This document shows positions 33,175 to 36,272 of a DNA stretch of 64,000 bases, one piece after another (positions within the stretch are counted from its first letter, which is position 1; each line of letters begins with the position of its first letter). A model generated the notes under the pieces. The model saw only the letters and a program-made list of their open reading frames with translations, was not told where the DNA came from and searched no databases. Both the position numbers and the translations under genes were made by a program. Source of the DNA: Paracoccus beibuensis (GTDB taxonomy: Bacteria > Pseudomonadota > Alphaproteobacteria > Rhodobacterales > Rhodobacteraceae); assembly GCF_026162625.1 (NCBI RefSeq), contig NZ_JAOTBD010000006.1, forward strand, positions 1 through 64,000. Reading direction: 5' to 3'.

Positions 33175-33956
33175 CTGGCTCCTCCGAATGTTTTTCGCAT
33201 TAGCACAAGCACAAAGGCCGAAACGGGTTCCATCGTGGTAGAGCATGGCGTCAATGAGCGGAAATGGCGACGCGCCCCGAACTGCACGATCAGTCGGCAT
33301 GTTCCGCTGTAGAATCGGTCCAGTTGCAGTGGAAGCTGCTGGCGGAGTAGTCGTCGGGACTGGATGATCGAATTGGCCGAGGCACTGGCGCTAGAACGGC
33401 AGGATCGTGACGGTCATTCGCATGCGCAGGGGACCTGCATCAATCAGGCAGAACGCCTCGTCACGAGTTGAAGAGGCTAAGGTCAGACAGCAAGGCTTGG
33501 GTCTTGAACAGCGGGCGGCCTCATGCACCCGGCTGTCGAACGGCGATTTCAGGGTGGCACCGCCGGCACGACGCTTCCATCAAGGATGCCCCTCAAGTTG
33601 CACCGGCCTGCAGTTTGCATCAAAATCCTTACGGGTCTCTCCATCAGCGCAAGATCTCGGAGTTTCAAGATGCGCTGCTTCATGTCCTTCCCAAACTACT
33701 CGCTTCACGAGACCTGGAGAGGCAGCCGCCGGAACATGTCTGTGAAGCCTCTCGCTGAAGCGCGCGCCCACCGAAGGGCGGCTCATACCCGCTTGAGCGG
33801 TGAGCCGCCGCAGCTGCGAGTGCTGCCACGAGGCCGCCACCTCAAGCAATCGATGCGCTATGAAGCACGCACCCTTGCACGCGCGCCGGGTTCTGCTCGT
33901 CGAGCGTCATTGTCCAAGAGTGAAATCAAGTCGCACCGTGGTCGCTGTGGCCATCT
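33175..33956. other. 782-bp region without an intact gene
   Basis: No frame here looks like a complete gene on either strand. It contains the ribosome-binding and promoter region of the stress-protein gene at its left edge, a long inverted repeat (GGCGGCTCA at 33777-33785 and TGAGCCGCC at 33801-33809 with an inner CCGCT/AGCGG pair) and a possible eroded AraC-type helix-turn-helix on the minus strand. Base composition looks less GC-rich than the flanking genes. It probably represents decayed accessory DNA. Confidence 0.5.
33640..33849 (-). pseudogene. Possible AraC-type HTH fragment
   Basis: The minus-strand frame reads LRRLTAQAGMSRPSVGARFS followed by ERLHRH, which resembles the first helix-turn-helix of cupin-AraC regulators (LAxxAGMSRxxxxxRF). 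The sequence then loses similarity, and no ligand domain or second HTH is found. It overlaps a strong inverted repeat, so part of the resemblance could be fortuitous. If real, it is a remnant. Confidence 0.3.
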
Positions 33957-36272
33957 TCAACCCTCGATGCTTCCGAAGTCGGCGATCTGCCGTCCCGCCT
34001 CACGGATGCGGGACAGAAGGTTCAGGCGGTTGCGGCGGACGATCTGCTTGTCGGTATTCACCTGGACCGCCTCGAAGAACGCATCGATCGGAGAGCGGAG
34101 TGCAGCAATGGCCGTCATGGCGGCGGGATAGTCCTCGGCGGCCATGGCGGCCATGATCTGCGGCTCGGCCTTGTCAAGCGCGGCAAAGAGGGCGCGTTCC
34201 TCGTCCGTCTCGGCGAACTTGGCGTCCGCGCCGAAGCTGTATTCCACGCCATCCTTCTCCTCGGCCTGCGCGAGGATGTTCCCGGCGCGCTTGAGGCCCT
34301 GGGTCAGGTTCTTGCCGTCTTCAGTCGCCAGCATGTCGTTCAGCGCAGTGGCGCGGGCGACCACACGAACGAGGTCGTCGTTCCCCTCCTGCGCCAGCAC
34401 CGCGTCGATGATGTCGTGGCGGATGCCCTGCTCGCGGAGGTAGACCTTGAGGCGCTCGTGGAGGAAGGAGAGGAGGTCGAAGCTGAGCAGAGACAGTCGA
34501 GCATCCCCTTCAACGATCCGTTTGTCACCCAACTGCGGGTTGGCATCCATATCTTCGAACCAAATTTGCGCAGCATCGGTGACACGCGCATCCATAAGAG
34601 CCTGCGCAAATTCCACGAGCGTTGTGTTGTATGTCACGGACTCATCGTCTGGGTGGATATGGCATACACCGACCCAGTTCTTTGCGTCCTGCGACTTACC
34701 TTCAGGCAAGAAGTAAATCTGGTTAGCGTGACTTGGTTCGAACCAAACGCCCGCTGCCGCACGGGCGATCAAGGTGTTCAGGTGAACTTGGGTATCATTC
34801 GTTAGGATCAACCGGATCACCCCCAATGCCGCCCGCCGCAGCGCGAAGGGGTCCTTCGACCCCGTCGGCTTCTCATCGATCGCCCAGAAACCCGTGAGCG
34901 CGTCGATCTTGTCGGCCAGCGCCACGGCGACCGAGACTGGGGCGGTCGGCACGGCGTCCGAGGGGCCAAGGGGCGAGTAGTGGTCGCGGGCGGCGTCGGC
35001 CACGGCGTCGGACTCTCCGGCTTCCAGCGCGTAGTAGCGGCCCATCGTGCCTTGCAATTCGGGAAACTCGCCGACCATGGCGGACCGGAGGTCCAGCTTG
35101 GCCAGGCGCGCGGCGCGTTCGGCCTGTTCGGGGTCGGCGCCGACCAGGGGAGCGATCTCGCGGGCAAGGGCCGCGATGCGCTGAATGCGGTCGTGCTGGC
35201 TGCCCAGCTTGCTCTGGAAGGTAACCGACTTCAGGCCCTCGGCCCAAGTCTCCATGCCGGATTTTGCCTCGCGCAGATCGTTGTCCCAGAAGAAGGCGGC
35301 GTCGGACAGGCGGGCGGCCAAGACGCGCTGGTTGCCGGCAAGAATGGTGGCACCGTCGTCGGAAGTCTCGATATTGGCGACTGTCACGAAACCCTCGATC
35401 CGGCCGGTCTTGGGGTTCCGGGCCGAAAAGAACTTCTGGTGCTCCTTCATCGAGGTCTGCAGGACCTCGGGGGGCAGGGACAGGAACCGGTCCTCGATCA
35501 CGCCCATCAGGGGGACGGGCCATTCAACGAGGCCGGCGACCTCGGACAAGAGGGCGTCGTCAGGGACGATCTGCCAGCCGCGGGCGAAGGCCAGGTTCTC
35601 GGCCTGCGACCGGATCTCGGATGCGCGTTCCTCGGCGTCCAGCATCACGCGGGCGCGGCGCAGCTTGGCGGCATAGTCGTCGAAGCCGGTGACGGTGAAG
35701 GCGTCGGGCGCCATGAAACGGTGGCCGCGGGTCGTGTTGCCTGCCGCAATGCCCTCGATGGTCAGCGGCACGACCTCTGCGCCCGCCTCATCGGACAGGA
35801 TGCACAGGATGGAATGCAGCGGGCGCACCCACCGCAGGCTGCCCGCACCCCAGCGCATGGATTTCGGCCAGGGGAAATTGCGGATCGCAGATTCCAGCAC
35901 GTCGGCCACGATCTCGGCGGCCGGGCGGCCGGGCTTGGTCAATGTGGCGAACCAGACCTGGCCCTTCTTGTCATCGCGTGCCTCGAGCTGGTCGCGGGTC
36001 AGGCCGGTCGAGCGCAAAAACCCATCCAGCGCCTTTTCCGGCGCGTCCGTGCGCGGACCCTTGCGCTCCTCGCGTGTGGTGGGGCTGTGGGCGGTCAGCC
36101 CCTCGACTGTCAGCGCCAGGCGGCGCGGTGTGCTGAAGGCGCCGGCCGAGGCATACGTCAGCCCGGCCTCGACCAGGCCGTCAGTCACCAAGCGCTTCAG
36201 GTCCTCGCGCGCGCGGGCCTGCATCCGGGCGGGAATTTCCTCGGAAAAGAGTTCGATCAGCAGGTCGGGCAT
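33957..36272 (-). CDS. glyS: Glycine--tRNA ligase beta subunit, with in-frame insertion
   Basis: A 771-residue beta subunit of the alpha2beta2 glycyl-tRNA synthetase; it binds tRNA-Gly while GlyQ holds the active site. The start [18 protein letters not shown] and blocks FSTPRRLALTVEGLTAHSP, GHRFMAPDAFTVTG, QTSMKEHQKFFSARNP and DPFALRRAALGVIRLIL are canonical, and the C-terminal LLSFLHERLKVYLREQGIR and tRNA-binding tail are intact. Between LTNDTQVHLNTLIA and LLSFDLL about 85-95 extra residues (roughly residues 495-590) are present, coded by visibly AT-richer DNA. They keep the frame, so the protein is probably functional. It follows glyQ and the DUF6446 gene. Confidence 0.93.
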   Translation of the reverse strand: MPDLLIELFSEEIPARMQARAREDLKRLVTDGLVEAGLTYASAGAFSTPRRLALTVEGLTAHSPTTREERKGPRTDAPEKALDGFLRSTGLTRDQLEARDDKKGQVWFATLTKPGRPAAEIVADVLESAIRNFPWPKSMRWGAGSLRWVRPLHSILCILSDEAGAEVVPLTIEGIAAGNTTRGHRFMAPDAFTVTGFDDYAAKLRRARVMLDAEERASEIRSQAENLAFARGWQIVPDDALLSEVAGLVEWPVPLMGVIEDRFLSLPPEVLQTSMKEHQKFFSARNPKTGRIEGFVTVANIETSDDGATILAGNQRVLAARLSDAAFFWDNDLREAKSGMETWAEGLKSVTFQSKLGSQHDRIQRIAALAREIAPLVGADPEQAERAARLAKLDLRSAMVGEFPELQGTMGRYYALEAGESDAVADAARDHYSPLGPSDAVPTAPVSVAVALADKIDALTGFWAIDEKPTGSKDPFALRRAALGVIRLILTNDTQVHLNTLIARAAAGVWFEPSHANQIYFLPEGKSQDAKNWVGVCHIHPDDESVTYNTTLVEFAQALMDARVTDAAQIWFEDMDANPQLGDKRIVEGDARLSLLSFDLLSFLHERLKVYLREQGIRHDIIDAVLAQEGNDDLVRVVARATALNDMLATEDGKNLTQGLKRAGNILAQAEEKDGVEYSFGADAKFAETDEERALFAALDKAEPQIMAAMAAEDYPAAMTAIAALRSPIDAFFEAVQVNTDKQIVRRNRLNLLSRIREAGRQIADFGSIEG

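Follow-up and report, generated by a model that had tools for sequence, protein, structure and literature searches.

A repeatedly replaced in-frame segment within the glycyl-tRNA synthetase beta subunit of Paracoccus and related alphaproteobacteria

What is a segment of about a hundred residues of unrecognized sequence doing inside an essential aminoacyl-tRNA synthetase, and how did it get there? The question is raised by glyS, the gene of the beta subunit of glycyl-tRNA synthetase (GlyRS), in a stretch of 64,000 nucleotides from Paracoccus beibuensis (NCBI RefSeq assembly GCF_026162625.1, contig NZ_JAOTBD010000006.1, positions 1 to 64,000), which is referred to as the window. It had originally been predicted from this DNA that acquired DNA became an in-frame insertion between two conserved blocks of GlyS. 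Comparison with related bacteria leads to a different answer: the window carries one allele of a module that is hypervariable and repeatedly replaced.

The identity of GlyS is supported by TIGR00211, matched with 771 bits against a cut-off of 300 in two stretches, and by PF02092, which covers residues 4-627 with 622 bits against a cut-off of 29.2 (E 1.3e-186). The segment is bordered by two conserved blocks, DPFALRRAALGVIRL on one side and DLLSFLHERLKV on the other. From the anchor GVIRL, at residue 488, to the anchor DLLSF, at residue 599, the window GlyS has 110 intervening residues, compared with 24 in the shortest Paracoccus relatives, which leaves about 86 extra residues and is consistent with the original count of about 85-95 residues where about 20 are usual. 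The GC content of the insert (34479-34808) is 0.527, compared with 0.657 in the downstream and 0.685 in the upstream part of the gene, and its GC content at third codon positions (GC3) is 0.59, compared with 0.87-0.88 in the flanks; the GC values that had been counted by hand were reproduced as 0.529 over 34561-34800 and 0.750 over 34981-35040. As had been stated, the frame is open throughout, a property kept by 36 of 5000 base-shuffled versions of the 330-base insert.

With one genome sampled per species, GlyS could be located in 124 of 125 Paracoccus genomes, and the site was read in 115 Paracoccus loci and in 85 distinct loci of other alphaproteobacteria. The latter numbered 94 before the removal of eight duplicates and of L083, which comes from a Paracoccus metagenome-assembled genome; a preliminary count of 195 inserts in 116 clusters still contained these. 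Four loci were removed before counting (L031, which is the L001 gene; L041, a broken gene in G031; L049, with a weak anchor; and L179, whose insert is not open), as were eight named loci identical to unnamed ones. The match of loci from the window's genus group to named Paracoccus records agrees with the placement of the genome in Paracoccus. L493-L496 stand outside the counts, and the partial loci L016 and L032 were omitted from the pair and tree analyses.

In Paracoccus, the site is 24-159 residues long and reaches at least 38 residues in 100 of the 115 loci. The insertion had been expected to be absent from most relatives; instead, most of them possess one, and mostly a different one. An ordinary lineage-specific loop, which would be present as the same segment with normal divergence and GC content in all relatives, is therefore not what was found. 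The flanks are conserved: in an ungapped comparison with the window, 105 of 112 Paracoccus sequences show 80-91% identity, and the remaining seven give lower values, down to 0.35 without realignment, probably because a length change shifts the comparison. The 100 Paracoccus inserts fall into 71 families according to phmmer and profile searches, nine of them with members in other genera as well, and all 199 inserts of at least 38 residues form 122 clusters, including 96 singletons. The family of the window insert has six members (L001, L006, L052, L053, L054 and L055); the other five are 30-54% identical to the window insert, and three of them come from Paracoccus species, the remaining two from single species of two different genera. 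When a profile of this family was compared with 394 genomes of the bacterial family, only two other genomes matched, both within GlyS. Many inserts begin with a common N-terminal stub (VLGNGVR-like). One insert family has 35 members, 34 of which are found outside Paracoccus, mainly in roseobacter-type genera; many have, by eye, a near-normal GC content, and the family looks like an older resident.

Variable inserts at the GlyS site are also present in other Rhodobacteraceae and in a second alphaproteobacterial family (f5, the family of G040), in which 30 loci have 14-125 residues at this position. The 18 inserts of at least 38 residues are nearly all unrelated, and 17 of them lie below their flanks in GC3. 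A second site of in-frame insertion is suggested for the same family by four genomes (G563, G574, G591 and G549), whose matches to GlyS are interrupted close to query residue 288. A further glyS, accompanied by an annotated gene for the alpha subunit of glycine--tRNA ligase, is located on a 197-kb plasmid of Sphingomonas parapaucimobilis (NZ_CP155756.1:26086-28464), and its product is 42% identical to the window GlyS.

The low GC3 of the window insert is shared by all 100 Paracoccus inserts of at least 38 residues, each of which is lower than the flanks of the same gene (mean 0.54 versus 0.85). Short forms of fewer than 30 residues (n = 13 in Paracoccus) have a mean GC3 of 0.78. Among 77 inserts of at least 38 residues outside Paracoccus, GC content is lower than in the flanks in 68 and GC3 in 64.

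Replacement of the insert is seen in closely related hosts. Five species pairs are more than 95% identical in the DNA of the N-terminal flank, and only L061/L168 carry inserts of the same family; in the other four (L009/L068, L054/L060, L059/L187 and L057/L165; 95.6-96.1% identity), the inserts are unrelated. The sixth-closest pair (94.9%) has short forms only. In base-level alignments, similarity extends at most a few codons beyond the anchors. A variable domain is replaced between conserved flanks, as in the HsdS subunits discussed below. On a tree of the flanks with 124 rows (113 Paracoccus and 11 others), 70 insert states require at least 102 changes, with a floor of 69. For 21 of the 23 insert families with several members, every member requires a separate change, and the 15 rows with short forms account for 13 changes. 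The same insert families are thus shared across distant hosts. Within families, the proportion of synonymous differences (pS) between inserts is 0.65-0.97 in 28 listed pairs, that is, pairs with an insert identity of at least 0.40, other than the six with a synonymous divergence (dS) below 1; the flanks of such pairs inside the genus have a dS of 0.40-0.82. Because pS is high at this flank divergence, the insert families appear to predate their host species. Old allelic families common to several species, together with a turnover faster than that of the flanks, are what diversifying selection would be expected to leave.

We infer, with moderate confidence, that recombination tracts through the conserved flanks are the vehicle of exchange. 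For the 24 near pairs whose inserts differ, which are few and not independent of each other, the 60 bases adjoining the insert show a divergence of 0.121 upstream and 0.110 downstream, with 0.033-0.120 and 0.039-0.098, respectively, in the other bins. The higher divergence beside the insert fits an import of the insert together with some flanking DNA. The same 60-base bins give 0.029 upstream and 0.067 downstream in four insert-free near pairs, with up to 0.142 in their other bins, and 0.167 and 0.150 in two near pairs with inserts of the same family.

The inserts also carry signs of selection at the protein level. The proportion of nonsynonymous differences (pN) is lower than pS in 81 of 82 within-family pairs, a count that includes pairs of all identities from families of 2-20 members. 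Inserts therefore look like functional protein, and, judged from these substitution patterns, most insert families seem to be kept as such. Six pairs have a dS below 1; the ratio of nonsynonymous to synonymous rates (omega) amounts to 0.14 and 0.21 for two pairs within Paracoccus, 0.10 in a pair of family f5 and 0.16 in a pair of normal GC content from a third bacterial family, f16.

Inserts of this kind recur in other synthetases. Internal GC3 dips of 60 codons were scanned over 1.23 Mb (31%) of the window genome, which contained 722 open reading frames (ORFs) of at least 200 codons. The strongest dips belong to AspS, the aspartate-tRNA ligase (AspRS; drop of 0.34), and to GlyS (0.27), compared with a mean of 0.038 and a standard deviation of 0.079. 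The fourth and fifth ORFs (0.23 and 0.20) run, by eye, into wrong starts, and further rows are milder. By another measure, applied to 269 ORFs, AspS is first and GlyS fourth, with rows two and three mis-framed by eye. A generally mosaic genome is not favored as an explanation within the 31% scanned, the other top rows being, as judged by eye, mis-framed or mis-started, flanked by low GC3, or milder. In AspS, the Pfam GAD match is limited to the later part of the domain, directly after the insert. Among 30 Paracoccus loci, 21 have a loop of 10-11 residues at this position and nine have inserts of 48-90 residues, with a GC3 of 0.37-0.60 in the eight measured; six share a common C-terminal part and three are unrelated. 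A comparison of the nine AspS with 199 GlyS inserts revealed no convincing common family (best blast E 0.003, best profile E 0.009). In one Paracoccus genome, aspS is matched twice, at positions separated by about 6 kb (G317:C11:521693-523459 and 527765-529531).

In valyl-tRNA synthetase (ValRS), 38 loci were compared, namely the 30 best matches to an insert-free query and eight added ones, several chosen for an odd gap, so that the counts are not frequencies: six have no insert, 27 have an insert of 100-102 residues with near-normal GC3, and five (L430, L431, L484, L485 and L486) have unrelated inserts directly before DPDVLDTWFS, with a GC3 of 0.49-0.68 versus 0.83-0.92. The corresponding loop of isoleucyl-tRNA synthetase (IleRS) could be excised in 28 of 30 loci and ranges in a graded manner from 19 to 52 residues; all six loops of at least 43 residues are lower in GC3 than their flanks. 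The slots in AspRS, ValRS and IleRS are, as we assume, accessory regions on the tRNA side. No such insert was seen in ThrRS, SerRS and ProRS (nine loci each) or LeuRS (two loci), all named by reading; one ThrRS locus has a GC3 dip of 0.22, which lies within conserved sequence. The coordinates of the features are compiled in Table 1. In the roughly 650 bases downstream of glyS (window 33300-33950), the GC content is somewhat lower, at about 0.59-0.64, and the mechanically listed ORFs include no convincing gene.

Table 1. Positions of glyS, its variable segment and anchors in the window, and of the insert-bearing aspS in the same genome
Feature	Position	Strand	Description
glyS, glycyl-tRNA synthetase beta subunit	33957..36272	-	771 aa plus stop; open frame, TIGR00211 and PF02092
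Hypervariable segment	34479..34808	-	residues 489-598 (110 aa) between conserved anchors; GC 0.527, GC3 0.59
Orphan core of the insert	34485..34772	-	residues ~501-596, edges approximate; family of 6 sequences, seen only in GlyS
Upstream anchor DPFALRRAALGVIRL	34809..34853	-	residues 474-488; alignment to the E. coli enzyme
Downstream anchor DLLSFLHERLKVYLREQG	34425..34478	-	residues 599-616; conserved block
AspS, aspartate-tRNA ligase	L294:4329-6320 (window genome, contig C18)		low-GC3 insert, ~73 residues beyond the usual loop, GAD region

The searches for the origin of the inserts were mostly negative. The window insert had been described as a sequence without a recognizable domain, and this description stands for the domain libraries tried; the accompanying expectation of a match to unrelated proteins or a mobile sequence failed. 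Outside GlyS, the window insert has no match in Pfam, PHROGs, NCBIfam, PADLOC, solved structures, phages, plasmids, viral contigs and the 394 genomes of its bacterial family; its insert family has no match among solved structures even at E 1, and its own genome contains no second copy. At E 0.01, 98 insert representatives matched seven Pfam, four NCBIfam, four PADLOC and no PHROGs families, each through a single member; chance alone would give about one match per profile library. The best of these weak single matches was to ChaB (E 6.8e-5). An intein was rejected, as no splicing or homing-endonuclease family was found by Pfam at E 0.01 in the 98 representatives, including that of the window. 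A transposable or palindromic element was likewise rejected, because the window insert has no duplication at its edges and only short inverted pairs. Evidence for a phage-derived domain was also missing, with no PHROGs match among the 98, no phage match for the window insert and no viral-contig relative for two insert families. Two further inserts, compared with part of the same sequence and structure collections, likewise gave nothing outside GlyS except for a weak phage match of one of them (33% over 43%, E 0.05). Nor was there a convincing match to a known anti-phage defense protein, with four single weak PADLOC matches among the 98 inserts (best E 6.2e-4) and none for the window's.

The position of the insert can be compared with that of the E. 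coli enzyme, in which the aligned match stops at about residue 508 and restarts at about residue 522 around the insert site. According to PMC8464048, the HD domain of E. coli GlyRS comprises residues 341-540, and the site falls inside it. The upstream anchor aligns to helix H19 and a loop of the HD domain, by which the acceptor stem of the tRNA is held, and the site lies about 26 residues after Arg481 and Arg482, which contact the acceptor stem, as described in PMC9908026.

We consider the chances about even that the segment is a fixed-site, exchanged accessory domain of aminoacyl-tRNA synthetases under diversifying selection, which most likely comes from an antagonist of the synthetases. Diversifying selection and an antagonist are inferred as the driver because the turnover separates hosts with 96% identical N-terminal flank DNA and because inserts recur in AspRS, ValRS and IleRS. 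Alphaproteobacteria would hold a large and old pool of unrelated domains. DNA of a relative's glyS could recombine via the conserved flanks, thereby swapping the insert and some flanking DNA, and the resident domain would then be retained as functional protein. A rare allele might be of advantage at the synthetase surface near the tRNA-binding side, and the driver could be an antagonist of synthetases or of the tRNA held by them, for instance a phage or competitor protein. Since the site lies near the acceptor-stem clamp of the HD domain, a role of the insert as a shield or decoy would be the most economical guess. It is tempting to speculate, at somewhat short of even chances, that GlyRS beta, AspRS, ValRS and IleRS share an immune-like polymorphism, in which fixed slots are filled from an old, shared pool of orphan domains and rare alleles are favored against undescribed phage, plasmid or competitor factors that target synthetases or their bound tRNA.

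Several observations weigh against this explanation. The analysis revealed neither an antagonist nor a partner gene or a phenotype. An insert of at least 38 residues is missing in 15 of 115 Paracoccus loci and must therefore be dispensable for viability, and the trait is not universal, since family f16 (the family of G051) has mostly segments of 30-37 residues with normal GC content and a few of 54-64; its one low-GC3 segment of 90 residues comes from a genome with 9% contamination. Constraint is also uneven: two Paracoccus pairs with a dS below 1 have an omega of 0.38 (L020/L164) and 1.11 (L209/L211), and the median omega of 0.59 for inserts versus 0.20 for flanks, in a set dominated by the 35-member family, is nearer to relaxed constraint. 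The insert of L179/L492 (G342) is interrupted by stops between flanks in one frame, which reflects damage or an assembly error. The third ORF of the GC3 scan has a dip (0.26) nearly equal to that of GlyS, but adjoins a low-GC3 flank (0.56). The rise in divergence beside the insert comes from the small set of pairs described above, and the bins 300-420 bases upstream are also high (0.108-0.120), as are bins thereabouts in insert-free pairs. Furthermore, structure prediction, which had been suggested as a way to recognize a separate domain, does not show a fold: the remainder of the enzyme is well modeled by AlphaFold, whereas the predicted local distance difference test score (pLDDT) is below 50 over most of residues 513-587 of the window insert and about 50-57 over residues 511-550 in the commonest insert.

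Because 15 of 115 species do without an insert of this length, the main rival is a tolerant surface loop with neutral turnover, in which harmless open stretches would be swapped by recombination without any antagonist. This possibility, which is also in line with the median omega of 0.59, the pair with an omega of 1.11 and the graded loop lengths in IleRS, appears unlikely given that 81 of the 82 pairs have a pN lower than their pS, that omega is 0.10-0.21 in four of six usable pairs, that the top two of 722 scanned ORFs are both synthetases, and that old families with high pS persist. An accessory domain that is adaptive through a housekeeping function, such as regulation, localization or the binding of a partner or tRNA, and that changes between species for ecological reasons instead of through conflict, seems quite unlikely: 71 families in 100 inserts and unrelated inserts in near-identical hosts leave little room for one role, even though change is constrained within families, the 35-member family is mainly confined to roseobacter-type genera and the dominant ValRS insert (27 of 38 loci) has near-normal GC3. 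Vertical descent of one ancestral domain, diverging extremely fast and without exchange, would account for the common N-terminal stub; with unrelated inserts despite 96% identical flank DNA, the same families in distant genera and low GC3 in 100 of 100 inserts, it is very unlikely. AspRS and IleRS are known inhibitor targets, and several synthetases are affected, which would suit resistance alleles against small-molecule inhibitors such as Trojan-horse peptide nucleotides; such resistance usually arises by point changes rather than new domains, and the inserts of AspRS, ValRS and IleRS stand at accessory positions, making this highly improbable. The original proposal that this lineage once acquired foreign DNA is refuted in that form, for the site is filled, mostly differently, in 100 of 115 Paracoccus, and inserts related to that of the window occur in GlyS from further species and genera; what remains of the proposal is a low-GC in-frame insertion in an essential enzyme, unlike its neighbors in sequence and with signs of lateral origin.

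The exchanged accessory domain of GlyS has parallels in known systems. In HsdS of type I restriction systems, as in the glyS inserts, a hypervariable domain between conserved flanks is replaced by recombination, and divergent families occur across species. Unlike HsdS, the host protein GlyS is essential and the insert is an addition that some species lack; the likeness to specificity exchange is drawn from sequence comparison. Rickettsia palindromic elements are also in-frame insertions in genes of essential proteins, but are copies of one kind of repeat, whereas most glyS inserts have no detectable sequence in common. Inteins likewise interrupt essential enzymes in frame; no intein or endonuclease family was found among the 98 glyS insert representatives, and change within insert families is constrained as in retained protein. 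Lineage-specific insertion domains of synthetases, such as Ins3, are stable features of deep lineages. Ins3 of human GlyRS, which is named in PMC9908026, is similarly an extra domain in a synthetase core. In contrast to domains of this type, glyS inserts differ between close species, form 71 families in one genus and have a GC3 below that of the gene. No report of such synthetase inserts was found in the open-access literature, a scope that leaves out most subscription papers and all bioRxiv preprints.

Aminoacyl-tRNA synthetases are usually taken to be among the most conserved housekeeping enzymes. The swapped slots with constrained orphan domains point to a conflict over the translation machinery, of which no description was found in that literature. 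They also call for caution against a careless phylogenetic use of these synthetase genes. In addition, the inserts make up an extensive natural collection of small domains tolerated by GlyRS, and the differing inserts, together with the species pairs that carry them, provide an entry point to the opposing factor.
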